In this document: one piece after another, positions 2,869-63,285 of the stretch
Numbering within the stretch: position 1 is the stretch's first letter
How the letters are laid out: each line of letters begins with the position of its first letter
Source of the DNA: Candidatus Binatia bacterium
GTDB lineage: Bacteria > Desulfobacterota > Binatia > UBA12015
NCBI GenBank assembly: GCA_029243485.1
Contig: JAQWRY010000032.1
Location: 1-64,000 of the forward strand
Reading direction: 5' to 3'
Length of the DNA: 64,000 nt
The notes under the pieces: model-generated
What the model was told of the DNA's origin: nothing
Database searches by the model: none
What the model saw: only the letters and a program-made list of their open reading frames with translations
Made by a program: the position numbers and the translations under genes

Positions 2869-3037
2869 CCGCCTACGAGAATTCCCCCTCAGGCCAGGTC
2901 GTCAAGGGGAAATCGGCGCGCCGGACTGCGTCGCCGGGCGGAGAAGGTATCAAAACTGCCAAGCGACGAATGCGCCAAGCTAGGCAATGGAGTCTGTGCC
3001 GGCCGCCCACCGCCAGAGCCCCGTCGGGAAGAGGGCG

Positions 3038-3570
3038 TCAGGCAAACTCGAGGCCAGGTCCACGCGGATAGGCGTCGGGTGCGATCGTGTTCGAGAGCAC
3101 GAACTGCTCGCTGATCTCCCAGTAGACGAACGGGCTCGGAACGCCGAGGGGGCCTTCTTCCAGACGCGCGCCTACGAGCCGCCCGCTCCGAGCCGGAGGC
3201 CCGGAAAGAAGGCATACTGCGCACCGACGAGACCGCCAGGGTTGAAGCTCTGCCCGATCGAAGCGCCGACTTCGAACGAGAAGCGTGCGGTGAACGCGTG
3301 GTTCATCAGCCAATTACCGAGCTTCTTCCCCAGGCTGACGGAGCCCGCGCGCTGTGGATGTCGCCCCAGGGCCGAGGGTCTGGCGTCGCCGCCCCGGGGT
3401 TGTTGTCCCGAAACGAATACCAGTCGCCCTGCAACGCGAGCTGGCCGCCGAGGATCAGGCCGGCGCCGACGGGGAATCCGAGTCGTCCGGCGGCGAACCC
3501 GGTATCCGTCGAGAAGGCTCCGCCGCCATTGATCGACGTGCGAAAGCCGTGCAGATAGCCCGCCGCGAGA
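3038..3570 (-). pseudogene. Broken outer-membrane beta-barrel-like protein
   Basis: Protein-like sequence runs through three minus-strand frames in turn. The first piece has alternating aromatic/Gly strands (FAAGRLGFPVGAGLILGG, LALQGDWYSF); the second continues with FSFEVGASIGQSFNPGG and VGAQYAFFPGLRLG; the third ends with FVYWEISEQFVLSNTIAPDA and a stop. The pattern suits a porin-like or outer-membrane transporter C-terminus. At least two frameshifts separate the pieces and there is no proper N-terminus, since it joins directly onto the CbiX remnant upstream. The frame changes are seen; the barrel assignment is inference from composition. Confidence 0.5.
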
Positions 3571-3598
3571 AGTGGGCCGCGGGAGCATCTGGGCGCGC

Positions 3599-3886
3599 GC
3601 CCGGTGGTGCCTTGCTCCTCGTCGGGGAGGCTCTCGGCCTCATCGATACGAGCTAATACGATCTCGACGAGTCTGGCGCCGAGCCCAAGCGTCTTAGTGA
3701 CGCGGACGGAACGCACGCGGCGACGACTTCGGGCACGTGCGGGGCGCAGATTTCGAGGTGGGCGCAGCGGATCGCCCCATCCGGACGATGCTCGACGAGG
3801 AGGCTCGCGAGATCTTCGAGCTGCGCGTTGGCCTCGGGGCGCCGGCTGCCGTGGTCCACCAGTATGATCGCGCCGTCTTCTCCCAT
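3599..3886 (-). pseudogene. CbiX/SirB-type sirohydrochlorin chelatase with internal deletion
   Basis: The N-terminus is a clear CbiX-family start: AIILVDHGSRRPEANAQLED, with the metal-binding His in VDHGSRR, then HLEICAPHVPEVVAACV. In the family a further 40-50 residues with a second His motif should follow. Instead the frame shifts directly to a piece like the family C-terminus (VTKTLGLGARLVEIVLARID). An internal deletion with loss of frame explains this. Chelatases of this type insert metal into sirohydrochlorin for siroheme or cobalamin, and siroheme is needed by the NirB encoded at 46-49 kb. The protein as encoded here is unlikely to work. Confidence 0.6.
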
Positions 3887-4030
3887 GGGATCGGGCTAGA
3901 GGATATATGCCTCGTCGAAAGTGCCGAAATGCAGAGGTTGCGCCCTTGCCAGCGGGTCGAGAGGGCGTAGGTGTGAAACGACGGCGGAGTCAGCGTCCGC
4001 ATGAATCTTGATCTCAATGACATCCGAACG

Positions 4031-4561
4031 ATGCTCGCCACGGTACTCATGGGAGCCCTCGGGTGCACGGGCATTCCGGAAGGGCTCGAGCCGGTGCGAG
4101 ACTTCGATTCCACACGCTACCTCGGTACCTGGTACGAGGTCGCACGCCTCGACCACCCGTTCGAGCGAGGCCTCGAGGACGTGTCGGCGCGTTACACCGT
4201 GAAGGACGATGGGGGCATCCGCGTCGTGAACCGGGGGTATGACGAATCTGCGCAAGAGTGGCGCGAGGCCGTAGGCAAAGCCTACTCGCAGGGAGATCCC
4301 ACGGTGGCCAGTCTCGAGGTGAGCTTCTTCGGCCCGTTTTACGGCGGTTATCACGTGATCTCGCTAGATGAGGATTACCGCGACGCCATTGTCACGGGAC
4401 CGGATCGCTCCTACCTCTGGTTCCTCTCCCGCGAGCGGTCGTTGCCCCGGGAACGCCTGGACGAGCTTCTATCCGTTGCCCGCGAGGCAGGCTTCGATGT
4501 CGCGTCGCTGATCTGGGTCGATCAGAGTCGCAGAGACCCTGCGTTGAAAGGCGAGAAGTGA
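4031..4561 (+). CDS. blc: Outer-membrane lipocalin (Blc-like)
   Basis: Bacterial lipocalin that probably binds fatty acids or lysophospholipids. The lipocalin signature GTWYEVARLDHPFERG sits near the N-terminus, followed by beta-strand blocks ending in LIWVDQS, close to the family's usual C-terminal region. An ATG at 4001 is also open; the ATG at 4031 starts a short hydrophobic signal ending in MGALGC, a weak lipobox, so a lipid anchor is likely. The gene opens a seven-gene plus-strand run; its TGA overlaps the GTG of the next gene (GTGA). Recruitment beside TIGR01777 and DUF1295 genes suggests a lipid-linked stress role. Confidence 0.85.
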   Translation: MLATVLMGALGCTGIPEGLEPVRDFDSTRYLGTWYEVARLDHPFERGLEDVSARYTVKDDGGIRVVNRGYDESAQEWREAVGKAYSQGDPTVASLEVSFFGPFYGGYHVISLDEDYRDAIVTGPDRSYLWFLSRERSLPRERLDELLSVAREAGFDVASLIWVDQSRRDPALKGEK

Positions 4562-5052
4562 CCGAGCGGCACATCGAGAATGGGCGTCCGACGGAGTCGG
4601 TCTGGGATTACCCCAGGCCCCCTCGATCCGAGCCGAGCTCTCTGCGGATCCAGGTCCGCTTCGGAGATCGTGAGATCGCGGACAGCACGCTCGCTCATCG
4701 CGTTCTCGAGACGAGTCATCCGCCCGTGTTCTACATTCCTCCCGCCGATGTGCTCACTGGTTGTCTCCACCGAGTCTCTCGGCGGTCCTTCTGTGAGTGG
4801 AAAGGCTCGGCGATCTACTACGACGTCGTCGTCGGAGACCGGAGGGAGGAAGCAGCGGCGTGGAGCTATCCTACACCGACGGACCGTTTCGAGCTGATCC
4901 GCGACTACATTGCTTTCTATCCGTCGCGAATGGACGAGTGCTTGGTCGACGGTGAGATCATCCAAGCACAGCCTGGAGACTTCTACGGCGGATGGATCAC
5001 GAGCGAGATTCGGGGGCCGTTCAAAGGTAGCCTCGGGACGGACGGCTGGTGA
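4558..5052 (+). CDS. DUF427-family protein
   Basis: 164-residue protein of the DUF427 family (once annotated NTP_transf_9). Typical features are PPVFYIPPADV, TGCLHRVSRRSFCEWKG, YYDVVVGDR and a C-terminal FYGGWITSEIRGPFKG. Members are small cytoplasmic proteins of unproven biochemistry, often near stress or light-response genes. It starts at a GTG that overlaps the lipocalin stop, so translation is probably coupled. No signal peptide or membrane segment is visible. Confidence 0.85.
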   Translation: MTERHIENGRPTESVWDYPRPPRSEPSSLRIQVRFGDREIADSTLAHRVLETSHPPVFYIPPADVLTGCLHRVSRRSFCEWKGSAIYYDVVVGDRREEAAAWSYPTPTDRFELIRDYIAFYPSRMDECLVDGEIIQAQPGDFYGGWITSEIRGPFKGSLGTDGW

Positions 5053-5216
5053 GTCGGCGGTAGGGGAAGACCGCGCGCCGCTGGCTCCCGACAGGCCTCA
5101 CGCCCGCTCGTTGCGATTGCGGTGAGAATGTTGGTCGCCAAGACCCTAGGGACTGGTAGCGTAAAGGCGTGTTCGGCGGGTGCGATCCTTGGCACCTTAT
5201 CGGTCGCAGATGGATC

Positions 5217-5888
5217 ATGGTTACGAGCCCGTACACCACCCCGTTGACGCTTCGCGCGGACCATTCGTCCCGAGACCGCAGGATTGCGACCGTGTGCCTG
5301 CCATTGCTGGCCTCGATGAGCTTCGCGACCCTGGTCGGAGTCGTCGCATCGCTCTACCTGGCGAACAACCATCCCCTGGCCCTCATCGCTCTGAGTCCAC
5401 TCCCTCGGCACCTCGTGCTCGTCGCCCCCACCGTCGATCCGGCCGCCTTTCTCCTCGTCGCGACTGCCCGTTCCCTGTCGTTCTTCGTCGTGTGCTTCTA
5501 CCTGGGACGGGCCTTCGGACCGGCGGCCCTCGTGTGGCTCGAGTTGCGCGCACCCCGGATGGGTCGTTTCGTGCGGTGGCTCGAGCGCGCCTTCGCGCAC
5601 GCATCGTACCCGGCGGTGCTCCTCCTGGCCGGTCCGGCCGTTGCCGTGATCGCCGGCGCCGCCGGCATGAAGGCGGTCGTCTTCTCGAGTCTTGCGGCGG
5701 TCGCCCTCATGGCGCGGCTCGTTCTCATCCTGGAGGTTGGTGACTGGCTCAGTGGGCCGCTCGAGGCGGTGCGGTCGCTGATCGGAATATACTGGATTCC
5801 GGGGACGTTTCTGCTGGTGCTCGGAATCAGTCTCTCGCGGTGGCGTGGACGCGGCCGGCGGGAAGAGATGGAAGGGAATCTTCGATGA
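5217..5888 (+). CDS. Multi-pass membrane protein, possibly DedA/VTT-like
   Basis: About 223 residues with several hydrophobic segments (LPLLASMSFATLVGVVASLYL, LVATARSLSFFVVCFYLG, YPAVLLLAGPAVAVIAGAAG, LIGIYWIPGTFLLVLGISL). An FYLGRAFG motif followed by a short amphipathic stretch resembles the DedA/VTT fold, but similarity is weak. The ATG at 5217 is preferred; a GTG at 5169 would add 16 residues. The stop overlaps the ATG of the epimerase gene (ATGA), tying it to the operon. No function can be assigned. Confidence 0.6.
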   Translation: MVTSPYTTPLTLRADHSSRDRRIATVCLPLLASMSFATLVGVVASLYLANNHPLALIALSPLPRHLVLVAPTVDPAAFLLVATARSLSFFVVCFYLGRAFGPAALVWLELRAPRMGRFVRWLERAFAHASYPAVLLLAGPAVAVIAGAAGMKAVVFSSLAAVALMARLVLILEVGDWLSGPLEAVRSLIGIYWIPGTFLLVLGISLSRWRGRGRREEMEGNLR

Positions 5889-6772
5889 AGGTGCTGATCT
5901 CCGGGGCGAGCGGTCTGATGGGTAGGAACTTGGTCCGGTCCCTGACCGAAGCTGGGCACGAGGTCCTGCGGCTGGTGCGTGCGGCCGATTCCGTAGGCAT
6001 CCCATGGGACCCCCGGGGTGGCGAGTTGGACCGCTCGCCGCTCGAAGGCTTCGATGCCGTGGTCCACCTGGCCGGGGAGAGCATCGCCGAGGGGCGGTGG
6101 ACGGTGGAGAAGAAGAAGCGGATTCGCGACAGCCGGATCGAGGGGACCAACCTGCTCGCACGCTCACTATCGGAGCTCGACCAGCCGCCAAAGGTACTCG
6201 TGTGCGCCTCGGCGGTCGGCTTCTATGGCGATCGTGGCGAGGAGATCCTCGACGAAAGTGCGCCCCCGGGGGTGGGCTTCCTCGCAGAGGTTTGCCGTGA
6301 ATGGGAGGCCGCCGCGGATCCGGCGCGCGAAAAGGGAATACGTGTCGTTCACCTGCGTTTCGGCGTCGTCTTGAGCGGAGAGGGGGGAGCGCTCGCGAAG
6401 ATGTTATTGCCCTTTCGTCTCGGACTCGGAGGGATCCTCGGCGACGGGTCGCAATATATGAGCTGGATTGCCCTCGACGATGCCGTCGGAATCGTCCTCC
6501 ACGCGATTTCCCATGAGGACCTGCGGGGCGCGGTCAATGCGGTTTCCCCGAACCCGGTCACGAACCGCGAATACACGAAGACGCTGGGAGGGGTGCTGAG
6601 GCGCCCGACGGTCATCCCCTTGCCATCTTTCGGCGCGCGACTGGCTTTCGGCGAGATGGCCGATGAGCTCTTGCTCGCAAGCGTGCGTGTGAGCCCAAAG
6701 AGACTCCTCGAGACGGGGTACGACTTCCGGTTCGCCGAGTTGGAAGAAGCCCTGGTTCAGACGACCGCATGA
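5885..6772 (+). CDS. TIGR01777-family NAD(P)-dependent epimerase (YfcH/SulA-like)
   Basis: About 295 residues. The N-terminal Rossmann motif is ISGASGLMGRNLVRSL, followed by VHLAGESIAEGRWT and the family pattern KKRIRDSRIEGTNLL, then SAVGFYGDRG in the catalytic region. The ATG at 5885 is chosen because it places the nucleotide-binding loop at the normal N-terminus and overlaps the previous stop. TIGR01777 proteins are atypical short-chain reductases; in other bacteria they cluster with lipocalin, DUF1295 and photolyase genes. The substrate is unknown. Confidence 0.9.
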   Translation: MKVLISGASGLMGRNLVRSLTEAGHEVLRLVRAADSVGIPWDPRGGELDRSPLEGFDAVVHLAGESIAEGRWTVEKKKRIRDSRIEGTNLLARSLSELDQPPKVLVCASAVGFYGDRGEEILDESAPPGVGFLAEVCREWEAAADPAREKGIRVVHLRFGVVLSGEGGALAKMLLPFRLGLGGILGDGSQYMSWIALDDAVGIVLHAISHEDLRGAVNAVSPNPVTNREYTKTLGGVLRRPTVIPLPSFGARLAFGEMADELLLASVRVSPKRLLETGYDFRFAELEEALVQTTA

Positions 6773-7668
6773 GTGCGGCGGAGCGACAGAGTCTGCTGGC
6801 CATTGTCGCGATCCTTCTGGTGGGTGGCGGGATCGTGTGGGCGGGAAGTCAGGGTGGTGTGCGGGTGGGCGGGCTCCCAGTGTTTGCGCTATGCGGGATC
6901 CTCGCGTTCGCAGTCAACTGGATCGCTTTCCTCCCGGCGTATCTCTCGCAGACGGAGCGTTTTTTCGACCTGACTGGCAGCTTCACCTACCTCTCTCTCG
7001 TCCTGCTGGCCCTGGCCCTGCGCGACGAGCCGGATCCGCGTTCCCTGCTGCTCGCCGTCCTGGTCGTCCTTTGGGCAGCGCGGCTCGGCAGCTTTCTGTT
7101 CAGACGAATCACGCGTGACGGCGGAGACGGACGCTTCGACGCGCTCAAGCCTAGCCTGTTACGGTTTCTGATGACTTGGACCCTGCAAGGCCTTTGGGTC
7201 CTCCTGACGTTGTCCTGTGCCCTGGCCGCGATGACCTCGGCTCATCCGAAGGCGCTCGGCGGGCTCGCCGCTCTCGGAGCGGCCCTGTGGGCGATCGGCT
7301 TCGTGATCGAAGTGCTGGCAGACCGGCAGAAGAGTCGCTTTCGAAGGGAGCCGGCGAACCGGGGGCGGTTCATCGACGTAGGCCTCTGGGCCTGGTCGCG
7401 TCATCCCAACTACTTCGGTGAGATCACGCTCTGGAGCGGGGTTGCGTTGATTGCACTGCCGGCCCTCGCCGACTGGCAGTACGTGACGCTGATCTCCCCG
7501 GTATTCGTCTACGTCCTGCTCACTCGCATTAGCGGGATCCCCCTTCTCGAGGCTCGAGCCGAGAAGAAGTGGGGCGGCCAAGCGGACTACAAGGCCTATC
7601 GGGACCGAACACCGGTTCTGTTTCTGCGCCCACCAAGCTCGCTGGGGTCTCGGAACGGTTCCGGATGA
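6769..7668 (+). CDS. DUF1295 (steroid 5-alpha-reductase-like) membrane protein
   Basis: 299 residues with about seven hydrophobic segments. The C-terminal half carries the DUF1295 hallmarks: ADRQKSRFR, GLWAWSRHPNYFGE and W.GG...YK.YRDRTPVLFL. These match the isoprenylcysteine-methyltransferase / steroid-reductase superfamily, which binds NAD(P)H or SAM in the membrane. It starts with ATGA overlap on the epimerase gene. A role in modifying membrane lipids is inference from neighbours. Confidence 0.88.
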   Translation: MSAAERQSLLAIVAILLVGGGIVWAGSQGGVRVGGLPVFALCGILAFAVNWIAFLPAYLSQTERFFDLTGSFTYLSLVLLALALRDEPDPRSLLLAVLVVLWAARLGSFLFRRITRDGGDGRFDALKPSLLRFLMTWTLQGLWVLLTLSCALAAMTSAHPKALGGLAALGAALWAIGFVIEVLADRQKSRFRREPANRGRFIDVGLWAWSRHPNYFGEITLWSGVALIALPALADWQYVTLISPVFVYVLLTRISGIPLLEARAEKKWGGQADYKAYRDRTPVLFLRPPSSLGSRNGSG

Positions 7669-7693
7669 GTCGTAGAACCGGGGAGCCGTCGCA

Positions 7694-9079
7694 GTGAAGT
7701 CGTCGCGCCTCGGCCCCGGGCGCATTGTGAGGTACTCGCTGCCGTCTCTCGTGACGTCTGTGACGGCTCTTCCGATGGCCTTGTTCGTCCCGGCCTTCTA
7801 CGCGGACGACCTCGGCATGCCGCTCGCGTCCGTTGGCGTTGCGATCGCGCTCTCGCGCCTGCTCGACGTCGTCACCGACCCGCTAATCGGCAAGCTGAGC
7901 GACCGGCTCCGGCTTCCGATCGGCCGTCGCAAGCCATGGATGGTGCTCGGCCTGCCGCTCTTCTCCGTCTCACTATGGAAGGTCTTCGTTCCGGACCAGG
8001 CGGTGACCCCCGCCTATCTACTCGGTTGGTCGGCGCTGCTGTATCTCGGCTTCACGATGATCGACCTTCCGCACCGGGCCTGGGGGGCGGAGCTCTCCAC
8101 CGACTACGACGAGCGTTCGCGCATCACCAGCTGGCGCGAAGGTCTGTCGACCGCTGGCCAGGTCCTCCTTCTCGTCGTCCTCGTCTGGCTCGGAACGTAC
8201 GGCGTAAAGGACGCGGCCGAGCAACTCCGCAGCGTCGCGCTGGTGGTCATCGTAGCGCTCCCCATCCTGACCGCGGTCTGCGTCCTCACGGTGCCCGAGG
8301 GCGAGCCAGAGGGCTTTGCGCACGAGGCCCGGAGCGCTTGGGCCGGCCTCGCACTCGTCGCGCGCAATCCCGCGTTCCTTCGGATGATGGGCTGTGTGTT
8401 GTTCTTCGTCTCCGGTGTTGCCATCCAGGGGAGCCTCCACCGACTGGTTCTTGCCGACGTGATGCGCGACGAGTCCCGCTTCACCCTCATGATCTTGCTC
8501 GAGAACGTGGCGACGTTGGCAGGCGTTCCTCTTTGGCTCGCCGTATCGGTTCGTATCGGGAAGCACCGTGCCTTGCTGGCCGCGGCCCTGTGGATCGCGG
8601 TCTGGAGCCTCCCACTCGTGGCCCTGCGAGAGGGCGACACGACCGTGATGATCGCGATGGTCGTTATCCGTGGCAGCAGCTTCGCGTCGATCCTCTTTCT
8701 CGCAAACTCGATCGCCGCCGACGTGATCGACGTCGACACGCTGGTGTCCGGAGAGCAGCGCACGGGGCTGTACTTCGCGGTCTGGGGAATGGTGACGAAG
8801 CTGTCGCTTGCGCTCGGCGTTCTGCTCGGAACGACACTGCCGGCCGCCTTCGGCTACGATCCATCCAGCGACGTGGCGACACTTCCCGTGCAGGCTTGGC
8901 TGATGGCGATCTATGGAGGCGTCCCCGCGATTCTCATGGCAGTCGGCGCTCTCTTTCTGCGACACTTCCCGATTACGCGCGAGCGTCACGACGAGGTGCG
9001 CATTGCGTTGGAAGCGCGGCGAGCGGCCGTGGGGGGCAGGGCCGGCGGGGGATGCGTCGCTATGGGAGATGAGAAATGA
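7694..9079 (+). CDS. MFS carrier of the glycoside-pentoside-hexuronide (GPH):cation symporter type
   Basis: 461 residues with about twelve hydrophobic segments. The loop DPLIGKLSDRLRLPIGRRKP, with acidic then Arg-rich residues, is the classic GPH signature, and WGAELSTDYDERSRITSWRE matches the second conserved loop. It starts at a GTG 25 bp after the DUF1295 stop. Despite the family name, members found beside lipid-modifying genes may carry other solutes, so the substrate is left open. The next gene begins with ATGA overlap. Confidence 0.85.
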   Translation: MKSSRLGPGRIVRYSLPSLVTSVTALPMALFVPAFYADDLGMPLASVGVAIALSRLLDVVTDPLIGKLSDRLRLPIGRRKPWMVLGLPLFSVSLWKVFVPDQAVTPAYLLGWSALLYLGFTMIDLPHRAWGAELSTDYDERSRITSWREGLSTAGQVLLLVVLVWLGTYGVKDAAEQLRSVALVVIVALPILTAVCVLTVPEGEPEGFAHEARSAWAGLALVARNPAFLRMMGCVLFFVSGVAIQGSLHRLVLADVMRDESRFTLMILLENVATLAGVPLWLAVSVRIGKHRALLAAALWIAVWSLPLVALREGDTTVMIAMVVIRGSSFASILFLANSIAADVIDVDTLVSGEQRTGLYFAVWGMVTKLSLALGVLLGTTLPAAFGYDPSSDVATLPVQAWLMAIYGGVPAILMAVGALFLRHFPITRERHDEVRIALEARRAAVGGRAGGGCVAMGDEK

Positions 9080-10323
9080 GCCATCGGATCGTCATCGTCG
9101 GGGCTGGATTCGCGGGCCTTTCCGCGGCGCTCGAGTTGCCGGATTCCTGCGACGTCACGGTGATCTCCGATCGACCCTGGTGCGAATTTCTGCCCAACAT
9201 CCACGAGATTCTGTCCTCACAGAAGCGCCCCGAGGATTTGCGGATAGACGCCTCCGCCCGGGTCGAGGAGGCCGGGCATCGATTCGTGCAGGACGAAGTC
9301 GTCGAGATCGATCGGGGCCGCCGCGTAGTCCGCGGCCTTTCTTCGGGAACGCATGCCTATGATGGATTGATCGTCGCGGTCGGCGGAGTGAACGCGACTC
9401 ATGGGGTCTCGGGCGCCGATCGATGGGCGATGCCGTTCAAGTCCGTGGCCGACTGTGAGCAGATTGGCACTCGGCTGCGCGCGCTCCACCGCAGATCTCC
9501 CAGGGCGCGAGTTACGGTCGTGGGGGGAGGGCTCGAAGGCGTCGAAGCCCTGGGCGAGATCCTGCGCGCGTTTCCCCGATTCCGGATCCGCGTCGTCGAA
9601 GCGGGGTCGCGCCTGCTCTCTGCGGGTCCCGCGAGCCTGGACCGGACGGTGCGTAAAGAATGCGCGGCGTTCGATGTCGGTTTCGAGATGGAGTCGCGCG
9701 TGGACGAGGTCGGTCGGGAACGGGTCACGCTCTCCTCGGGCGTGGCGGTGGACAGCGAGGTGACGATCTGGACGGGAGGGCCCACGGGCGCGCCCCTCCT
9801 GAACTCGGCCGGCCTCGCGCCGCGCGCAGGCGCCTGGGCGCCCGTCGCCGCGACCCTCGAGAGCTCCGATGCCGAAGGCGTGTTCCTCGCCGGCGATGCG
9901 GCTGCGCTTGGGGAACCGATCGCGAAGCAGGCCTACCACGCGATGGACATGGGCGTCTGCGCCGCGAGGAACGCCATGCGTCGGCTCGATGGTAGGGTGC
10001 TCGAACGGTTCGTGCCGGCCGAGAAACCGATGCTCGTTTCTCTCGGCCACTTGGGGTGCTTTCTCGTGCAGGGCCGTTGGGCGCTGTTTGGCCCAGGGAT
10101 CTCGATGGCGAAGGAGGCGGTTTTCCAGTTGGTCACGGCCCAGTTGGCGCCACCGAGCGGGGTCGATTCGACGGTTGCCGCCTGGAGGCGTCTGAGCGGA
10201 GCGTTTCCCGAGCCAGGCTGGCCGAGCGTGCCGGCGGTCTGGAACGCTCTGCGCGGAGCGCTCGACGTGCGCGTGCTGGCTCCGGAGGAGGGCGCATGCA
10301 CGTCATCACCGAATGCGCCTTGA
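9076..10323 (+). CDS. FAD-dependent NAD(P)H oxidoreductase (NDH-2/FSP1-like)
   Basis: 415-residue flavoprotein of the pyridine nucleotide-disulfide superfamily. The FAD loop is VGAGFAGLSAALEL at the N-terminus, the NAD(P) loop is VTVVGGGLEGVEALGEIL near residue 150, and the C-terminal FAD motif is VFLAGDAAALGEP. No redox-active CxxC pair is seen, which argues for a type II NADH:quinone oxidoreductase or ferroptosis-suppressor-like reductase rather than a disulfide reductase. It closes the operon that starts with the lipocalin, overlapping the MFS gene by ATGA. Confidence 0.85.
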   Translation: MSHRIVIVGAGFAGLSAALELPDSCDVTVISDRPWCEFLPNIHEILSSQKRPEDLRIDASARVEEAGHRFVQDEVVEIDRGRRVVRGLSSGTHAYDGLIVAVGGVNATHGVSGADRWAMPFKSVADCEQIGTRLRALHRRSPRARVTVVGGGLEGVEALGEILRAFPRFRIRVVEAGSRLLSAGPASLDRTVRKECAAFDVGFEMESRVDEVGRERVTLSSGVAVDSEVTIWTGGPTGAPLLNSAGLAPRAGAWAPVAATLESSDAEGVFLAGDAAALGEPIAKQAYHAMDMGVCAARNAMRRLDGRVLERFVPAEKPMLVSLGHLGCFLVQGRWALFGPGISMAKEAVFQLVTAQLAPPSGVDSTVAAWRRLSGAFPEPGWPSVPAVWNALRGALDVRVLAPEEGACTSSPNAP

Positions 10324-11728: not shown

Positions 11729-12421
11729 TCACTCGATGCTCGTCCCAACCAACGGCCAAAAAACGAGCAGCGCTGCGTCCCAGACCATGTGCGCGACGAA
11801 CACCGCGGTGAGGCTGCCGGTCTCGTAGCGCAAGGTGTTCCAGCAGATGCCGGCGCCGAGACAGGCGAGGACTAGGGCCGTCGAGCCGATCGGAGCGTGC
11901 GCGATGGCGTAAAGCGCGGTGCCGGCGATGACGGCGAGGGGCCAGGGCACGCGGTCGACGAGCGCACCGTAGATGACACCGCGCCAGACGATTTCCTCGC
12001 AGGCGACGACGATGGGGAGTGCGACGAACAGTGCTGCGGGACCCAGGTGGCCGAAGTCGACGTAGAGCCGGACGACGCCGGCGAGAAGCTCGGGCGCGGC
12101 GCGGGTGACGGGCGGAAACAGGAGATAGGTCGCTGCGGCCATGAAGGCGCCGGCGGCAAAGCCGATTGAAAGTGCTCTCGGGTCTAGGCCGAGAGCCGCG
12201 CGGATTTCGGGTCCTTGGAGGAAGACCGCGGTGATGCCGAGCAGTAACGCGGTTCCGCCCACCGCCGGCCAGATTCCGAGCGGGTGCGACAGCCAGGCGC
12301 CGACGGCCCATAGCGCCGCCATGCCGAGCGCGATCGCCCCCTTGCCCGAACTGGTCGCCGCCGCGACTCTCAAGTGGCCTGCCCCGGCGCCGCCAGAAGC
12401 AGGCGCTCGATGATGCCCCAC
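11729..12421 (-). CDS. CPBP-family intramembrane metalloprotease (Abi/CAAX-type)
   Basis: About 230 residues with seven or eight hydrophobic segments. The CPBP motifs are intact: CEEIVWRGVIYG (EExxxR) near 142-147, AIAHAP with the second metal-site His near 175, and HMVWD near 211. Such proteases cleave prenylated or other membrane substrates; some serve bacteriocin immunity. The ATG at 12421 overlaps the upstream gene by about 50 bp; a TTG at 12373 that overlaps the upstream stop (TTGA) is an alternative start and would keep all motifs. Confidence 0.85.
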   Translation of the reverse strand: MGHHRAPASGGAGAGHLRVAAATSSGKGAIALGMAALWAVGAWLSHPLGIWPAVGGTALLLGITAVFLQGPEIRAALGLDPRALSIGFAAGAFMAAATYLLFPPVTRAAPELLAGVVRLYVDFGHLGPAALFVALPIVVACEEIVWRGVIYGALVDRVPWPLAVIAGTALYAIAHAPIGSTALVLACLGAGICWNTLRYETGSLTAVFVAHMVWDAALLVFWPLVGTSIE

Positions 12422-13371
12422 GGGCCGCGTATGGGCCCTTCGCGCTTCTCGTCAGAGATCGTGCGACGCGCGGCTTCGTCGAAGTCTTGCAGGCTGGTGT
12501 GGCCTATCCTCTCCCAGAAGCGCGCATCGTCGGCGAGGAGGTCTTCCTTGAGCCCCACGACGATCTCGCGCGCCACTGACCACTCGGCGCGCGTGACGAA
12601 GCGGACCCAGTGAGACGAGAGCTTCGGCGTCAGAAACGGAACCTCGATCATGATCGGTCGCGGGCGGCCGAGCACGTCCGCCGTGCGCTCGAGGATTTCG
12701 CGACCCGAGAGGACCTCCGGGCCGGGCACCCCGAACCATTCGCTCCCGTCGACGACCAAGTCGAGCGCGCCGAGGACGGCGACGACGACGTCGTTGATTG
12801 CCACCGGCTCGGTGCGCGACTTCAGCCAGCGCGGCAAGACCATAACGGGGAGTCTCGCTGCGAGATCTCGCACGATGAGCCAGCTGAGGCTGCCGTGGCC
12901 GATGATCATGCTCGCGCGCAGCTCGATGGCGCTCACGCTTCCCGAACGCAGGGTCTCGCCCACGTCCCGCCTACTGCGAAGATGTGCGGAGGCATCGGAG
13001 CTCGGGGCTGTGACACCTCCGAGGTAGACGATGCGGCGCACCCCGGCGTCCTCGGCGGCGCGCAGGAACGTCTCGGCCTGGGCGACCTCCGCTCGGTGGA
13101 AGTCGCCGCTCGCCGTCGCCATTCCGTGCACGAGGTACAGAGCGCTGTCGCATCCTTCGAGGGCGCGTACCGTCGAGTCCCGATCTGCGACGTCGGCGGT
13201 CACCCAGTTGCGGCTGGGCCACTGCGCGGCTGCGCGTTCCCCGTCTCGCGTCGCGCAGCGCACGTCCCAGCCCGCGGCGACGAGTGCCGGGTAGACGGCA
13301 CCACCCACGAAACCGGTAGCTCCGGTGAGCAGTATGTTTCGTTCCTCGCCTCGCCTGGTCGGCTCTTCCAT
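12370..13371 (-). CDS. NAD(P)-binding protein of the atypical SDR/NmrA-like type
   Basis: About 333 residues. The N-terminal ILLTGATGFVGGAVYPALVAAG is a Rossmann dinucleotide loop, followed by VRCATRD, DVADRDSTVRALEGCDSALYLVHGM and RRIVYLGGV, typical of NmrA/complex-I NDUFA9-like reductases. No YxxxK catalytic pair is evident, which is normal for this subgroup. The ATG at 13371 is chosen because it places the Rossmann loop near the N-terminus. It is cotranscribed with the CPBP protease downstream. Confidence 0.85.
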   Translation of the reverse strand: MEEPTRRGEERNILLTGATGFVGGAVYPALVAAGWDVRCATRDGERAAAQWPSRNWVTADVADRDSTVRALEGCDSALYLVHGMATASGDFHRAEVAQAETFLRAAEDAGVRRIVYLGGVTAPSSDASAHLRSRRDVGETLRSGSVSAIELRASMIIGHGSLSWLIVRDLAARLPVMVLPRWLKSRTEPVAINDVVVAVLGALDLVVDGSEWFGVPGPEVLSGREILERTADVLGRPRPIMIEVPFLTPKLSSHWVRFVTRAEWSVAREIVVGLKEDLLADDARFWERIGHTSLQDFDEAARRTISDEKREGPIRGPWGIIERLLLAAPGQAT

Positions 13372-13490
13372 GTGGCTCCTGGCTCTCCTTGCGGGGCGGT
13401 AGACAGCCGTTTCGGCAAGATCCCGGCACCCGGCGGGACCTGCACGCACATGGTGCGGAGCCTCGGCCTGCCGGGCGTTCGACGCGAGCC

Positions 13491-13889
13491 CTAGCCGATG
13501 TGTGCTTCGCGTTGGATGGCGAGCCACCCCTGGATGCGGCGCCCGATCCGGATGGGCAGGACGCGCCAGTGCATGATGAACGGCGTGCCGTCCTTCTTGT
13601 AGTTCACCGCCTTGCCCTCGAAACGGCCGCCGGAGGAGAGCGCCTCCGAGAGACGAGCGATGACCTTTCGGTCGGTTCCCGCGCCCTGCAGAATGCGCGG
13701 CGTCTCACCGATCACCTCGGCCGGCTCGTAGCCGGTGAGCTTCTTGAACGCCCTGTTGGCATAGACGATCCGCCCATGCTTGGAGGCATCGGTGATCAGG
13801 ATCGAGTCGAAGCTGTTGTCGGCGAGTGCGCGCAAGAGAGCTGGGTTTGCGCCGCTGCTACCGAGGATCTCGTCGAACGAAGCCGCCAT
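13491..13889 (-). CDS. Stand-alone PAS-domain protein
   Basis: About 132 residues that are almost entirely one PAS domain: ALADNSFDSILITDAS, VYANRAFKKLTGYEPAEVIG, then ETPRILQGAGTDR and GKAVNYKKDGTPFIMHWRVLPI. No output domain follows, so it may act as a small sensor or partner protein. The ATG at 13889 has a GAAAGGA ribosome-binding site 6-8 bases upstream. The site where a LOV photoreceptor carries cysteine is Pro here, so a flavin adduct is unlikely. Confidence 0.85.
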   Translation of the reverse strand: MAASFDEILGSSGANPALLRALADNSFDSILITDASKHGRIVYANRAFKKLTGYEPAEVIGETPRILQGAGTDRKVIARLSEALSSGGRFEGKAVNYKKDGTPFIMHWRVLPIRIGRRIQGWLAIQREAHIG

Positions 13890-14221
13890 TGGTGTGTCCT
13901 TTCTTTTTCCGTTGTAGATCGCTGAGAAACGGGGCATCGGCCCGCGCACATCCTCCAGCATGAGGTGACGGTACTCGTTCTAGGGGCGGGCACAAGGCTC
14001 AAAGATCGAAGCTCCAAGCACGACGTCACACCCTGCGCGCGCACAGCCATCCGCGAACGATCTCGACCAGTTCCTCCTTCGCCGCGAGGTCGATGTTCGC
14101 ACTGCCGCGGCATTCTATCCGCACAGCGCTTCGGTACCATCAGGGAGCGGTGGGCGGCGTGTTTTGAGCTTGCGGCAGGCCTCTGCCGGGATACGCTCTG
14201 ACGACTCGCGGAGCGAAAGAT

Positions 14222-14854: not shown

Positions 14855-15316
14855 CTACGACTCGCAGAGAGCCCGAAACCGGTCCAGGTCGCTCTGGAAT
14901 TGGCGCCGGAGGAGGGGGCGGACGAACGTCATGCCCCAACGGCCCAGTGGTCCGAGGGGCGCGGCGAGGCGTTCGCGCCATCCCACATGGGTGGATTCGC
15001 CGGAATCGCTCTCGCGCAGGGTGAACGTGCCCTCGCCCGTGACGAGCCCTCGATGGACGACCGTCCATCGCTCCGGGGGCTCGTACGCGGTCACCTCCAT
15101 GATGTCGGTCGTGCGAAAGATCCCGATCTGCGTGGGGACCTTCATGCGGCTGCCGACTCCCATCGGCCCGTCCGTCAGCATCTCGATCGATAGCGCGTCG
15201 CGCATCCATTCGGGCTGACGCTGTACGTCTGCCAGCACCTTCCACACGGCCGCTCTCGGACGGGCGACGGTGACGGAAACGAGGACTTCCACCGCGTTCT
15301 CGATCTGAGAGGTCAC
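14855..15316 (-). CDS. SRPBCC (START-like) family protein
   Basis: About 153 residues from a GTG at 15316 (an ATG at 15388 is also open). The pattern VEVLVSVTVARPRAAVWKVL near the N-terminus, PEWM, then GVGSRMKV, WTVVHRGLVTGEGTFTL and a long C-terminal amphipathic helix (LRRQFQSDLDRFRAL) matches the polyketide-cyclase/START fold. These proteins bind hydrophobic ligands; the ligand is unknown. It is divergent from the broken gene at 15390. Confidence 0.8.
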   Translation of the reverse strand: MTSQIENAVEVLVSVTVARPRAAVWKVLADVQRQPEWMRDALSIEMLTDGPMGVGSRMKVPTQIGIFRTTDIMEVTAYEPPERWTVVHRGLVTGEGTFTLRESDSGESTHVGWRERLAAPLGPLGRWGMTFVRPLLRRQFQSDLDRFRALCES

Positions 15317-15389
15317 CTCGGGTCGCCCGTCATCATCGATGGAATGAGCACGGTGTTCACATATCACACGGGCCGTCGCCCGAGCCACT

Positions 15390-55839: not shown

Positions 55840-57768
55840 ATGGCGGGCGCAGTCGTCGCGGGGAGTCCGACGGGGGTCGAGGGGCTCCGGGCCCGCGCGG
55901 GGAGAGCCGCGGATTGGGCGCGGCAGCACCTTCTGGGCCTGCAGGACGCAGAGGGCTTCTGGCACTTCTCGATGGAAGCCAACGCGACGATGGATGCCCA
56001 GTACATCTTCGCGAACCGGCTCCTCGGTCGCTCGGTCCCCGACGTCGAGCGGCGCCTGGGCGACCACATCTTGTCGACCCAGCGCGAGGACGGAAGCTGG
56101 GCTCTGTACTTCGGCGGGCCGGGCCATCTCAGCTGCAGCATCGAGGCGTATTTCGCTCTCAAGCTGCTCGGGCACGAAGCGAGCGAGCCGGCACTGACGC
56201 GCGCTCGGCACTTCATCCGGGCGAACGGGGGGGCGGCCAAGGCGCAGGTCTTCACGCGGATCTTTCTCGCGTTCTTCGATCAGTTCCCGTGGGCGGGTGT
56301 ACCCGCGTTGCCGCCGGAGCTCCTCCTCTTGCCCGAACGCTTTCCGCTCTCGATCTATCGGATGTCGAGTTGGGCTCGGTCGACGGTCGTGCCTCTCTTG
56401 ATTCTGCTGCAGCACCGCCCGTCGTACGACGTGCCGCCGGGGCAAGGCGTGGAGGAACTCTGGGTCGATCCGCCGATGCCGGCCGACGTGCAGTTCCCGC
56501 CCGACTCGAAGTTGTTCACGGTACGGAATCTTTTCCTTGCTGCCGACAAGGTGCTGCGGCTGCTCGATCGGCTGCCGGTCCGTTTCCGCAGGCGGGGTCT
56601 CGAGCGTGCCCTGCATTGGATTCTCGAACGTCAGGATAGCAATGGGGGTTGGGCCGGCATCCAGCCGGCGATGGTGAACTCCGTTCTCGCGTTGCGGGCC
56701 ATGGGTTGCGCGGAAGATCACCCGTCGGTCGTCGCGGGGCTGAAGGCGCTCGACGACTTCCTCGCCGAGCGCGAAGGTCATCTGCTCTTTCAGCCGTGCG
56801 TCTCTCCGACCTGGGACACGGCGCTCGCCGTGCGCGCGCTGGTGGATGCCGGCGATGCGCCGAACGCGGAGCACGTGACGCGCGCGATGCGATGGCTCGA
56901 CAAGTGTCAGATCAAGCGCCCCGGCGACTGGGCGGTGCTGCGCCCCGATCTTCCGGCGGCCGGCTGGGCCTTCGAATTCGCGAACGATTGGTACCCCGAC
57001 GTCGACGACTCGGCGGTCATCCTCATGGACATGGTGCTCGCGGGCGAGACCGAGAGCGAGACGTTCAAGCAGGGCCTCGAGTGGACCCTCGGGATGCAGA
57101 GTGCCGACGGTGGCTATGGCGCCTTCGACGCGGAGAACACGCTCGACCTCTGGAACCGAATTCCGTTCGCAGACATGAAGGCGATGATCGACCCCCCGAC
57201 CGAGGATCTCACCGGTCGCCTCTGTGAGTTGATGGGCATGCTCCATCTCCAGCCGCACGAGCCGCGGTTGAAGGCGGCTCGCGCGTACCTTCGACGGACG
57301 CAACGCAGCGACGGTTCCTGGTGGGGCCGGTGGGGCGTAAACTACGTGTACGGCACGTGGTCGGTGATCGCGGGGCTGCGCGCAGTTGGTGCCCGTGAGG
57401 ACGACGACATGATCGCGCGGGGCAGTGCGTTCTTGCGGGGCTACCAGAACGATGATGGCGGCTTCGGCGAGAGCTGCGCGACGTACGAAGAACCCAGGCA
57501 ACCGGCCCCCGGTCCGAGCACGCCTTCACAGACGGCGTGGGCCGCGATGGGGCTCATGGCGGGCGATGAGAAGATTACGCCCGAGCTCAACGACGCGATC
57601 AGCTACCTCTGTCACGCGCAGTCGCCCGACGGTAGCTGGCCCGAGCCGGAGTTCACGGGCACCGGCTTCCCGGGACACTTCTACCTTCGATACGACGGCT
57701 ACCGGAACTTCTTCCCGTTGATGGCGCTCGGGCGCTACCAGCGGCTGCTCGACGCGGCCGAGGGATGA
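55840..57768 (+). CDS. shc: Squalene-hopene cyclase
   Basis: 642 residues, the usual length. The acid motif DVDDSA at 387-392 (DxDD) protonates squalene. QW repeats are visible throughout (QREDGSWALYFGG, QDSNGGWAGIQPA, QSADGGYGAFDAE, QRSDGSWWGRWGV, QSPDGSWPEPEFT). The monotopic membrane enzyme folds squalene into hopene/hopanol. It is the first gene of a five-gene operon; its stop overlaps the hpnC start (ATGA). Tandem palindromes lie just upstream. Confidence 0.97.
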   Translation: MAGAVVAGSPTGVEGLRARAGRAADWARQHLLGLQDAEGFWHFSMEANATMDAQYIFANRLLGRSVPDVERRLGDHILSTQREDGSWALYFGGPGHLSCSIEAYFALKLLGHEASEPALTRARHFIRANGGAAKAQVFTRIFLAFFDQFPWAGVPALPPELLLLPERFPLSIYRMSSWARSTVVPLLILLQHRPSYDVPPGQGVEELWVDPPMPADVQFPPDSKLFTVRNLFLAADKVLRLLDRLPVRFRRRGLERALHWILERQDSNGGWAGIQPAMVNSVLALRAMGCAEDHPSVVAGLKALDDFLAEREGHLLFQPCVSPTWDTALAVRALVDAGDAPNAEHVTRAMRWLDKCQIKRPGDWAVLRPDLPAAGWAFEFANDWYPDVDDSAVILMDMVLAGETESETFKQGLEWTLGMQSADGGYGAFDAENTLDLWNRIPFADMKAMIDPPTEDLTGRLCELMGMLHLQPHEPRLKAARAYLRRTQRSDGSWWGRWGVNYVYGTWSVIAGLRAVGAREDDDMIARGSAFLRGYQNDDGGFGESCATYEEPRQPAPGPSTPSQTAWAAMGLMAGDEKITPELNDAISYLCHAQSPDGSWPEPEFTGTGFPGHFYLRYDGYRNFFPLMALGRYQRLLDAAEG

Positions 57769-58688
57769 GCGAAGAGCTCGAGCGCGCGTACGCGCACTGC
57801 GACCAGATCGCGCGCTCGCACTACGAGAACTTCCTGATTGGTTCTCGGCTGCTTCCGAAGGCGGACCGGCGCCACCTTGCGGCGCTGTACGCGTTCGCCC
57901 GAGGCGCCGACGACATCGCCGACGAGCCGGATTTCGCGGGAGACCGACGAGCGGCGCTCGACGCATGGGAGCGCGAGCTCGATGAGGCGCTGCTCGCTCG
58001 CCCGGCCGGGCCGGTGTTCCGCGCAGTCGCGCATACCGTCCAGGAGCGCCGGCTCAGTGCCGAGCCCCTGCGCGCTCTCCTTCGTGCGTTTCGTTACGAT
58101 GTCGACTTTCAACCCTTCCGGGATTTCGACGCGCTACGCGCGTACTGCCGGGATTCCGCGAATCCCGTCGGGCAGTTGGTCCTGGGCCTGTTCGGAGTCT
58201 GCGACGCGCGCTCGGTTGCTCTGTCCGACGACGTTTGTACCGGGCTGCAGCTCGCAAACTTCTGGCAGGACCTGTCGGTGGATCTCGCCCACGGGCGTTC
58301 GTACCTCCCGATCGCGGAAATCGAGGCCTTCGAAGGGGCGGGCGCGGCGCTCGCGGATCGGTCGACCAATCACGGATTCGACGGGCTTCTTTCGTTGCAG
58401 TTGGAGCGCGCGCGTTACTTCCTCTCCGCCGGAGAGGAGCTCGCAACCCGGTTGCCGCTGCGTGCTGCAATCGAAGTGCAGATGTTCGCGGGCGGCGGCC
58501 TGCGGATCGTAGACCGGATAGAGGAGCTGCGTGGACGGATTCTCACGGAACGTCCCAAGTTACGGCGGGCAGACTTCGCACGGATTTTCACCGGGAGCGT
58601 CGTTCGCTCGGTCTTCCCTGGCACGAAGGCGCTCGATCCTCGGACCAGCGCGCGTTCCCGTCGGGCGCGCCCGAAGGGAGTGGTATGA
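57765..58688 (+). CDS. hpnC: Squalene synthase subunit HpnC (hydroxysqualene synthase)
   Basis: 307 residues, trans-isoprenyl diphosphate synthase head-to-head type. YAFARGADDIADEPDF holds the first Asp-rich motif, GLQLANFWQDLSVDLAHGRS the second (N..QD...D). In the three-enzyme bacterial route HpnD makes presqualene diphosphate, HpnC converts it to hydroxysqualene and HpnE reduces that to squalene. Overlaps shc and hpnD by 4 bp each, so translation is coupled. Confidence 0.94.
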   Translation: MSEELERAYAHCDQIARSHYENFLIGSRLLPKADRRHLAALYAFARGADDIADEPDFAGDRRAALDAWERELDEALLARPAGPVFRAVAHTVQERRLSAEPLRALLRAFRYDVDFQPFRDFDALRAYCRDSANPVGQLVLGLFGVCDARSVALSDDVCTGLQLANFWQDLSVDLAHGRSYLPIAEIEAFEGAGAALADRSTNHGFDGLLSLQLERARYFLSAGEELATRLPLRAAIEVQMFAGGGLRIVDRIEELRGRILTERPKLRRADFARIFTGSVVRSVFPGTKALDPRTSARSRRARPKGVV

Positions 58689-60996: not shown

Positions 60997-62198
60997 CGGT
61001 AGCGCTCGCCGCGATCTCGCTGCTGGCGTGGCTCTACCTGTGCTTCTGCCACGGCCGCTTCTGGGTCGGCTCCGAACGCCTGGACGACGGGGATCCCAAT
61101 CCGCGGCACTGGCCGGATGTCGTGGCCGTCGTGCCGGCGCGCGACGAGGCCGACGTGGTGGAGCGATCGATCGGCTCGCTTCTTCGTCAGGAATACCCGG
61201 GGCGCTTCGCCATTATTTTGGTGGACGATGAGAGTCGCGACGACACGGCGACCCGAGCCGAGCGACTCCCGGACCGGCAGGGACGGCTTACCGTCGCCCG
61301 CACGCCGCCCCGGCCGTCGGGCTGGGTGGGCAAGATGTGGGCGGTCCACATTGGCGTGCAGGCAGCCCGGCGCTTGTGGCCTGCGGCCGAGTACGTCCTG
61401 CTGACCGACGCCGACGTCGAGCACAGTCCGCGCAACCTCGCGCAGCTCATCCGTCGCGCGGAGAGCCGCGGTCTGGATTTGACTTCTCTCATGGTCAAGC
61501 TCGATGCAGCGCGGGGCTGGTCACGCTTGCTCATCCCGGCGTTCGTGTACTTCTTCGCCCAGCTCTACCCGTTCCCGCGTGTGAACGATCCGGAGGCGCG
61601 CACGGCGGGCGCCGCTGGTGGATGCATGTTGGTGCGGAGCCGGGCTCTCGAACGCATCGGGGGGATGGAGGCGTTGAAGGGCGAGGTCATCGACGACTGC
61701 GCGCTCGGCCGGGCGGTGAAGCGCGGTGGTCCTATCTGGCTCGGCCTCACCACTACCGAGACGAGCATCCGTCCGTACACCGGCCTGGACGATATTTGGG
61801 CCATGGTCGCACGGAGTGCGTACACCCAACTCGGATACAATCCGTTGCTCGCCGTCGGGACCGTGGTCGGGCTCGCGCTTCTCTTCGTCGTGCCGGTCGT
61901 CGCTACGCTGGGATGGATCGTGCACGGCGACGCCCTAGTGGCACTGCTCGGCGCCGGCGCGTGGGCGGTCATGGGAGCGACGTTTGTTCCGACGCTCTCT
62001 TTGTACCACCCAGGCCCCATGGCGGCGGTTTGGGCGACGGCGCTCCCGCTCGCGGGCGCGGTCTACGGCGCGATGACGCTGGACTCCGTCCGCCGGCACT
62101 ACACGGGCAAGGGAGCGGAGTGGAAGGGCCGCGTCGGCGCGGGGGCCGACGCGGCGTCTGAGAAGGAGGCGAAGGTCAGGAGCTCTGGTGCGAGCTGA
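60993..62198 (+). CDS. hpnB: Hopanoid-associated glycosyltransferase HpnB
   Basis: 401 residues. An N-terminal hydrophobic segment (VALAAISLLAWLYLCFCHGR) precedes a GT2 domain: VVAVVPARDEADVVERSIGS, IILVDDESRDDTAT and VLLTDADVEHSP (DxD). Three hydrophobic segments follow near the C-terminus (VGLALLFVVPVVATLGWIV etc.). GT2 proteins of this kind are found in hopanoid clusters and were named HpnB; the acceptor is unproven. It ends in a 23-bp tail overlap with hpnH. Confidence 0.9.
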   Translation: MTVALAAISLLAWLYLCFCHGRFWVGSERLDDGDPNPRHWPDVVAVVPARDEADVVERSIGSLLRQEYPGRFAIILVDDESRDDTATRAERLPDRQGRLTVARTPPRPSGWVGKMWAVHIGVQAARRLWPAAEYVLLTDADVEHSPRNLAQLIRRAESRGLDLTSLMVKLDAARGWSRLLIPAFVYFFAQLYPFPRVNDPEARTAGAAGGCMLVRSRALERIGGMEALKGEVIDDCALGRAVKRGGPIWLGLTTTETSIRPYTGLDDIWAMVARSAYTQLGYNPLLAVGTVVGLALLFVVPVVATLGWIVHGDALVALLGAGAWAVMGATFVPTLSLYHPGPMAAVWATALPLAGAVYGAMTLDSVRRHYTGKGAEWKGRVGAGADAASEKEAKVRSSGAS

Positions 62199-63216
62199 CG
62201 CGCTTGGTGCGCGGCACGCGGCCGAACTGGAACTTCGCCATGGTCCAGAGGTCGCGGGCGTTGCTGCCGAGATGCCGGACGACCGACGGCTCGAAGCCGG
62301 AGTGCATCTTGCAATTCTGGCACCGGGGATCGCTTCGCTTCTCCCAGTAGTCCCAGTCGACGCCGTTCCAGTACTCGTCCCAGGTGGCGTAGTGTCGCTC
62401 GCCGATGAGATAGCAGGGGCCCTTCCAGCCGAGCGGGGTCCGCGTCGGGTTGCCCCAGGGTGTGCACGGGTAGTCGCGGAGGCCCGCGGCGAACTCGAGG
62501 AACAGCGGCGTCGACGAGACGGCGTACGACTTCGAGAGCTGCAGAACGCGCTTGAACTTCCGGTGGATCTCGTCGAGGAACAAGAAGTGGTCGCGATCGG
62601 CGAGCGCCTCGTAGTGGTAGCCTGGGGAGAGGAGCACGCCCTGGACGCCGAGTCCGGTGAGCAAGTCGAGCATCTCCTCGATCTCGTCCATGCTCGTTTC
62701 GCGGAAGACCGTCGTGTTGGTCGAGACGACGAAGCCGCGTCGGATCCCTTCTTCGATCCCGGCGATGGCCTTGTCGAAGACGCCGGTGCGCGCGCAGATG
62801 GTGTCGTGTGTTTCTCGCATCCCGTCGAGATGGACGTTCACGAGCAGTCGCGGGTGCGGCTTCGCCTTTTTATAGAAGCGATCGAGAAGGATCCCGTTGG
62901 TACACAGGATGACCTGCTTCTTGCGAGCGATGCAGGCATCGATCAGTTCGACGATCTCCGGGTACATCGTGGGCTCGCCGCCGCAGATCGATACGACGGG
63001 TGCTCCGCACTCGTCCACCGCGGCGAGGCATTCCTCGAGCGGCATACGGTCTTTGAGGTCGCCGGTGTGGCGCTCGGGAGAGCAGCCGATGCAGGCGAGG
63101 TTGCATGCGTACAAGGGCTCGAGCATCAGGACGATGGGGTAACGCTCGTTCCCCTGTATCTTGTTCTTGACCTGCCAGCGGGCCATGTCCGTGGCGATGT
63201 GCAGCGGGTACCTCAT
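62176..63216 (-). CDS. hpnH: Adenosyl-hopene transferase HpnH (radical SAM)
   Basis: 346 residues. YACNLACIGCSPERHTGDLK (Cys38, Cys42, Cys45) is the CxxxCxxC [4Fe-4S] site. SICGGEPTMYPE is the GGE motif for SAM, and CQNCKMHSGFEPSVVRHLGS the C-terminal HpnH-type cluster (SPASM-like region). It joins a 5'-deoxyadenosyl group to diploptene to make adenosylhopane, the first step to extended hopanoids. The ATG at 63216 (MRYPLHIATDMARWQVKNKI) is chosen over one at 63264 since it gives the normal N-terminus. Confidence 0.96.
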   Translation of the reverse strand: MRYPLHIATDMARWQVKNKIQGNERYPIVLMLEPLYACNLACIGCSPERHTGDLKDRMPLEECLAAVDECGAPVVSICGGEPTMYPEIVELIDACIARKKQVILCTNGILLDRFYKKAKPHPRLLVNVHLDGMRETHDTICARTGVFDKAIAGIEEGIRRGFVVSTNTTVFRETSMDEIEEMLDLLTGLGVQGVLLSPGYHYEALADRDHFLFLDEIHRKFKRVLQLSKSYAVSSTPLFLEFAAGLRDYPCTPWGNPTRTPLGWKGPCYLIGERHYATWDEYWNGVDWDYWEKRSDPRCQNCKMHSGFEPSVVRHLGSNARDLWTMAKFQFGRVPRTKRVSSHQSS

Positions 63217-63285
63217 TCCTGGCCGTCCCTCCCTCTCGAGCGCCCCTGAATCGACGCTGACCATCCGGTCAGTATCGGCCGCGCG

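Follow-up and report, generated by a model that had tools for sequence, protein, structure and literature searches.

A seven-gene cassette in a Candidatus Binatia genome as a probable dispersed branch of light- and singlet-oxygen-type membrane-lipid clusters

We analysed a 64,000-nt stretch of a Candidatus Binatia genome (the window; bases 1–64000 of contig C32 in a 6.5 Mb assembly of 88 contigs) that carries a compact cassette of lipid- and redox-type genes. A first-pass annotation, made from the letters alone, had named seven genes and their families at this site, and an open reading frame (ORF) check found all seven present and intact on the + strand, spanning 4001–10323, with the coding status of each backed by codon-position GC. 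The cassette begins with a Blc-type outer-membrane lipocalin, likely a lipoprotein (4001..4561; PF08212, Lipocalin_2, E=5e-41), and a DUF427 protein with a GTG start (4558..5052; PF04248, NTP_transf_9, E=1e-32). These are followed by MemP, a membrane protein without a Pfam or NCBIfam match and hence without a known family (5217..5888), and by a TIGR01777 NAD(P)-binding oxidoreductase of the SDR39U1/YfcH/ThyD type (5885..6772; 336 bits against a cut-off of 207, with a DUF1731 tail). The last three genes encode a DUF1295 integral membrane reductase-like protein (6769..7668; PF06966, E=5e-64), a GPH/MFS_2 symporter (7694..9079; PF13347, E=8e-76) and an NDH-2-like FAD/NAD(P)H oxidoreductase (9076..10323; PF07992, Pyr_redox_2).

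For the lipocalin, a start at 4001 is more likely than one at 4031. The upstream start is preferred because the signal peptide of a paralogue in the congeneric genome G001 has equal length, and the downstream start is disfavoured because just ~11 residues would then precede the lipid-anchor Cys. The MemP ORF opens at 5169, and we used the start at 5217, which is common to its homologue in the congener G002 and therefore leaves a gap of 164 bp after DUF427. The description of the genes as joined mostly by 4-bp overlaps held for four of the six junctions (lipocalin/DUF427, MemP/TIGR01777, TIGR01777/DUF1295 and MFS/FAD). The other two junctions have gaps: 25 bp between DUF1295 and MFS, and the 164 bp that part the lipocalin–DUF427 pair from the remaining five genes.

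To follow the cassette beyond this genome, DUF1295 orthologues were used as queries in a scan of 84,980 species genomes, which yielded 80 loci of one subfamily. Its members are marked by the motifs RDGGDGRF and QTE-FFDL, are up to 69–70% identical to the window protein and occur in Myxococcota, Gemmatimonadota, Acidobacteriota, Actinomycetota, Chloroflexota, Pseudomonadota and other phyla. Carriers available in culture include Pseudoteredinibacter isoporae (L171), Microbacterium (L164, L186) and Propioniciclava (L148). Unbiased clustering of all genes within 7 kb of the 80 loci returned mostly clade-local synteny (Holophagales-type and Acidimicrobiia-type groups), together with three partners that recurred across phyla, namely the GPH symporter, NmrA-DUF2867 and LitR-MerR. 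The GPH/MFS_2 transporter was the tightest of the cross-phylum neighbours, being the next gene downstream of DUF1295, at 71–76% identity, in loci L125, L126, L127, L130 and L139; photolyase, Cfa, lipocalin and TIGR01777-SRPBCC also occurred as neighbours in different phyla. Homologues of LitR/CarH-type MerR regulators were found at 6 of the 80 loci against 0.28 expected from 27 matches across 129 Mb from 30 of these genomes, scaled to 1.33 Mb of loci (Poisson P 5e-7, or P = 2e-4 if only 4 of the 6 loci are independent).

Individual loci showed how these partners are combined. At L139 (Gemmatimonadota), a row of NmrA-DUF2867, a photolyase-like gene, DUF1295 and GPH faces a second set comprising GTP cyclohydrolase, SRPBCC, two CMAS (Cfa) methyltransferases and a flavin amine oxidase, and a LitR homologue stands at the locus end. 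The photolyase-like gene has no Pfam match; its assignment comes from a weak resemblance to the photolyases of contig C10, from the window's own genome, and of G001. L134 resembles L139 without the photolyase, which was present in L146 and L202. A Lipocalin_2 gene directly precedes DUF1295 in L128 and L130; in L137 the order is a LitR-like MerR, a lipocalin match (28–29%) and DUF1295, and in L162 it is LitR with B12-binding domains, an NmrA-type oxidoreductase, TIGR01777 (50%), SRPBCC and DUF1295. A full DUF427 gene (52%) lies 2.4 kb upstream of DUF1295 in L129. Relatives of the NDH-2-like gene (46–54%) were found in 4 of 18 subfamily-carrying genomes, standing ~1 kb from a lipocalin in L213 and near NmrA-DUF2867 in L216. 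Two kinds of match were rejected: the apparent DUF427 gene of L128 proved to be a 32-residue remnant (69%) between lipocalin and DUF1295, and in some TIGR01777 matches near Cfa the part of the C10 query that matched was its SRPBCC tail and not the SDR.

A second line of evidence came from the same genome, where contigs C10 and C85 carry paralogues of the lipocalin together with the stretch upstream of it. The C10 lipocalin is 69% identical in amino acids, the copy in G001 76%, and the decayed C85 copy 81–82% in DNA. The C10 cluster contains photolyase, TIGR01777-SRPBCC, NmrA-DUF2867, a MerR regulator in which a B12 domain was not detected, an acyltransferase and a chalcone-isomerase-like gene, and further on adjoining remnants of LitR and DUF1295 (~27.8–28.4 kb), then a barrel gene and the intact lipocalin. 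On C85 (L107, 101–107 kb) the decayed lipocalin adjoins a CMAS (Cfa) gene, a flavin amine oxidase, DUF1365 and another CMAS (Cfa) gene. An integrase-core (rve) ORF also lies beside this decayed copy. The corresponding region of G001 holds LitR with a B12 domain, photolyase, MerR, another DUF1295, the barrel gene, CbiX and the lipocalin; it presumably consists of two joined contig ends, because the barrel gene is cut at both. Thus the statement of the first-pass annotation that photolyase and Cfa are missing was right for the window and wrong for the genome, which has a photolyase on C10 and two Cfa genes on C85. The gene set of this genome is spread over at least three contigs. The simplest history would be a break-up and partial duplication of an ancestral light cluster, of which the window retains one branch.

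Both lines of evidence support the kinship to light- and singlet-oxygen-induced clusters that had been proposed for the cassette. In other phyla, its DUF1295, lipocalin, TIGR01777, MFS and flavoprotein genes have relatives that recur beside LitR-type regulators, photolyase, Cfa and NmrA-DUF2867, and within its own genome the photolyase cluster and the Cfa cluster each hold a paralogous lipocalin segment. We therefore regard it as fairly probable, though well short of settled, that the cassette is a dispersed and rearranged branch of the light/singlet-oxygen-type membrane-lipid cluster that handles damaged or lyso-lipids by transport and reduction. The reference sets for this reading are controlled by LitR/CarH or by sigmaE-ChrR and include photolyase, Cfa/UfaM, flavin oxidases, SDRs and a GPH symporter; the accessory genes typical of light clusters (lipocalin, TIGR01777, DUF1295 and GPH symporter) are all in the cassette.

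The DUF1295 protein was modelled from 50 sequences (predicted local distance difference test score, pLDDT, 92.9). VIA-align placed it closest to the delta14-sterol reductase MaSR1 (Z 17.6 over 263 residues, root-mean-square deviation 4.0) and to steroid 5-alpha-reductases (Z 14.6 for PbSRD5A and 13.3), followed by ICMT (11.2, and 10.1 for a second ICMT entry) and chain G of the chloroplast complex 8xku (10.6), with the remaining rows at Z <=6.1. Foldseek assigned the sterol/steroid reductase fold with a probability of 1.00 but an E of 6e-3, and the DUF1295 profile found PbSRD5A at E 1.9e-5. Of the published NADPH contacts of PbSRD5A (PMC7815742), D163, R170, N192, Y193 and E196 correspond to D185, R192, N214, Y215 and E218 in the window protein, so that five of the six contacts in transmembrane helices (TM) 5–6 are identical and the sixth, N159, is replaced by E181. 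All members of the subfamily share D185, N214, Y215 and E218. A reading as an ICMT-type methyltransferase was rejected on its lower Z scores and on the N and E of the NY-GE motif, which favour reductases. The Z scores and the identities at NADPH-contact residues thus favour, at the level of a model, an NADPH-type membrane sterol/steroid reductase-like protein over a methyltransferase. The protein shares its fold and these cofactor contacts with MaSR1 and SRD5A, but its sequence identity to them is only ~18%.

This similarity also speaks for a different interpretation, namely an operon that modifies sterols, hopanoids or steroids without any link to light. Its substrate would be a polycyclic isoprenoid, reduced by DUF1295, altered at a 3-oxo or hydroxyl group by the SDR and exported or imported by the MFS. 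Besides the delta14-sterol reductase and SRD5A as best structural matches, a squalene-hopene cyclase and a squalene/phytoene synthase 45 kb away in the window, as well as GMC oxidase and ADH genes within it, speak for such an operon. The recurrent cross-phylum neighbours of the subfamily, however, are light-cluster genes and not sterol or hopanoid genes, and genes for steroid degradation were not recognised next to the cassette. Nor could the Q-E-Y substrate motif of SRD5A-type enzymes be demonstrated in DUF1295, where TM2-3, the region of this steroid-binding motif, is not alignable by sequence; T62 and E63 are invariant. On this balance we consider a sterol or hopanoid operon unlikely, if worth keeping in view.

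The remaining cassette proteins were compared with solved or characterised relatives. The lipocalin matched E. coli Blc structures with 199 bits over 156 residues; its lipid-anchor Cys is conserved in all copies, its lipobox is weak, and it scored 228 bits against the subfamily model, below the cut-off of 267. Blc itself binds lysophosphatidylethanolamines at nanomolar affinity (PMC8177097). For the flavoprotein, which has FAD and NAD(P)H Rossmann domains, the best match was to NDH-2 (B. subtilis YjlD, 103 bits over residues 1–348), so that of the two names in the label NDH-2/FSP1-like the first fits better than the second, FSP1 reaching 37 bits. The fold of MemP could not be used, as its model had a pLDDT of 44.

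For the MFS, the best solved relatives were the MFSD2A lysophosphatidylcholine symporters (83.5 bits vs 30.8 for MelB; 94 vs 46 with a profile). It keeps the MelB cation-site residues D55, D59, T121, D124 and K377. The name of the GPH family suggests a sugar or glycoside transport and redox operon, and both the match to the TIGR00792 GPH profile and the homology to MelB are in keeping with that. The profile score of 164 bits is nevertheless below the cut-off of 231, the galactoside-binding Asp19 and Trp128 of MelB are replaced by Ser and Arg, and the cassette has no glycosidase nearby and partners of lipid type, which together make a sugar operon very improbable. The likeness to MFSD2A is a hint and no more, discriminating only weakly. 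Unlike the sodium-lysophosphatidylcholine symporter, with which it shares membership of the MFS_2 family and the cation site, the cassette MFS is bacterial, and lipid transport is at most predicted for it.

Comparison with known systems showed partial parallels in each case. The sigmaE-ChrR set of R. sphaeroides (RSP_1091-1087 and RSP_2143-2144) comprises UfaD, UfaO, the GPH symporter RSP_1089, an SDR, PhrA and UfaM/CfaS, and RSP_1089 is singlet-oxygen-induced within the sigmaE operon RSP_1091-1087 (PMC7074977). Like this lipid-linked set, the cassette joins a GPH symporter, an SDR and flavin redox genes; unlike it, the window has DUF1295, lipocalin, DUF427 and an NDH-2-like flavoprotein, and the cassette has no UfaD-type amine oxidase, CfaS or photolyase, nor was a sigmaE or ChrR gene recognised nearby. 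The light-inducible LitR/PplR clusters of Pseudomonas contain phrB, an SDR, an FAD oxidoreductase, ufaM (PMC9758184) and folE. In other phyla, cassette-gene relatives likewise adjoin LitR-type regulators, photolyase, Cfa and GTP cyclohydrolase. The genome studied here differs from the Pseudomonas clusters in that its genes are scattered over at least three contigs and no intact LitR was found. In Chlamydomonas, a DUF1295 gene and CFA1 require SAK1 for induction by singlet oxygen (PMC4067076). A lipocalin-based defence against peroxyl radicals with other partners is known in Burkholderia (PMC9113575), where BcnA-LcoA-PsrA combine a lipocalin, cytochrome b561 and an aldehyde reductase; the combination of a lipocalin, a membrane redox protein and a reductase is an analogy only, since the protein families differ and DUF1295 and MFS take the place of cytochrome b561. 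The parts of the cassette are known and their grouping is new.

The reading of the cassette as a branch of the light-type clusters is based on the identities of the genes, their coupling, the subfamily neighbourhoods, the paralogous segments in photolyase and Cfa clusters, the reductase fold and the five of six NADPH contacts. From these we infer control by light or singlet oxygen, the class of substrates and a joint action of the seven products. A Blc-type lipocalin at the outer membrane would capture lysophospholipids or oxidised acyl lipids, and inner-membrane passage of a lipid-like solute, possibly a lysolipid, could fall to the cation-coupled MFS_2 transporter. With NADPH as reductant, the DUF1295 membrane protein may saturate C=C bonds in lipid, isoprenoid or quinone products of photo-oxidation; a carbonyl partner would be reduced by the TIGR01777 oxidoreductase, and the NDH-2-like flavoprotein would hold the quinone pool reduced. 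The role in lipid or quinone repair that the first-pass annotation had suggested is likewise putative. A bolder version, to which we give little credence, is a bacterial photo-oxidative phospholipid salvage in which the Blc lipocalin would pass lysolipids or oxidised lipids to an MFSD2A-like symporter, with the DUF1295 ene-reductase, SDR and NDH-2 detoxifying them alongside Cfa/furan-lipid protection. In gene sets for photo-oxidative stress, DUF1295, the GPH symporter and lipocalin appear repeatedly without an assigned function. One DUF1295 subfamily is now tied to a single transporter partner across phyla and has an NADPH-reductase fold with cofactor residues, and the suggested substrate class of lysolipids or oxidised lipids makes the function of these accessory genes testable in cultured strains.

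Several results weigh against the light-type reading. Two features of light clusters are missing, as neither a linked regulator (LitR/CarH or sigmaE-ChrR) nor photolyase with Cfa/UfaM was recognised in or next to the cassette, the search for sigmaE-ChrR not having been genome-wide. An intact LitR was not found in the window's genome, where the sole LitR-like match was a 51-aa remnant at C10:27865-27990, and palindromes of the LitR-like type seen upstream of litR in G001 occurred in the window in chance numbers only. Most of the 80 subfamily loci have no light-type neighbour, and DUF1295 also occurs alone. In R. sphaeroides, RSP_1089 is dispensable for furan fatty acid synthesis (PMC7380195). 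An MFS paralogue beside a mannosidase-like gene also prefers MFSD2A, with a smaller margin (74 vs 58 bits), and this control weakened MFSD2A specificity too far for it to be used as a sole argument. The first-pass annotation had named a lack of conservation among close relatives as refuting its proposal, and the full set was found in none of 13 family genomes (3 congeners and 10 other family members), several of which are incomplete (some 63–92% complete); by that yardstick a conserved cassette is refuted. No 10-mer or palindrome common to the cassette and the C10 and G001 clusters was found, and a TTGC-N18-TAG pattern before three lipocalin copies, kept by eye, was too weak to claim.

The cassette as a whole is not conserved in the family, a pattern that is consistent despite the incomplete genomes. 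Orthologues of DUF1295 (59–60%) were found only in G008 and G012, without other cassette genes, and relatives of the NDH-2-like gene (43–44%) only in G010, standing alone. DUF427 homologues of ~50% sit in other contexts, and across 58 related genomes the full-length relatives of the MFS reach <=36%. A MemP homologue was seen only in the congener G002 (contig C210, 71%), where it is directly followed by an internally deleted GPH/MFS gene (L040 8302-9269), with TIGR01777 and the cassette-type DUF1295 missing. Such a distribution would also be expected if unrelated membrane and redox genes had been assembled by local rearrangement without a common pathway, and decayed genes next to the cassette likewise indicate a rearranging region. 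Upstream of the lipocalin and divergent to it lies a decayed CbiX-family gene (3718..3950, −) whose middle part is missing (an intact 154-aa CbiX is at L108 345-806 in G001), next to a decayed outer-membrane barrel-like gene with reading frame shifts (3000..3716, −), 74% identical over 82 aa to the intact 360-aa barrel gene of contig C10 (L106 5207-6289). The four 4-bp overlaps argue against chance assembly, as does the recurrence in other phyla of the linkages DUF1295-MFS, lipocalin-DUF1295, TIGR01777-SRPBCC-DUF1295, FAD-lipocalin and DUF427-DUF1295, and we regard it as an improbable explanation.

Downstream of the cassette lie three further genes on the opposite strand. The first encodes an NmrA-type oxidoreductase (12370..13527, −) that is 36–43% identical to its NmrA-type counterparts in the light clusters L202, L139, L162 and C10; a DUF2867 tail was not detected in the window protein. 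A SRPBCC (polyketide_cyc2) lipid-transport-like protein follows at 14855..15388 (−; PF10604, E=3.5e-16). Between them is a gene for a short LOV-like PAS protein (13491..13961, −), whose best NCBIfam match is the YtvA blue-light photoreceptor family (77 bits, below the cut-off of 250) and in which GETPRILQG replaces the photoactive-Cys motif. With these three genes, the island may extend to 15388. The LOV-like PAS gene adjoins the NmrA gene, 3 kb from the cassette; in Pseudomonas mendocina, a short LOV protein acts on class II LitR (PMC9758184).

On the other side, an ABC1/UbiB-type kinase gene (1462-2868, −) adjoins the cassette, and an ABC1-like match near NmrA-DUF2867 and DUF1295 was also seen in L202 and L203. 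No RNA elements or tRNAs were found in the window. Its distal part holds the hopanoid locus (55840-58688 and 62179-63264), which includes the squalene-hopene cyclase, the squalene/phytoene synthase and a radical SAM/DUF3463 (HpnH-like) gene.

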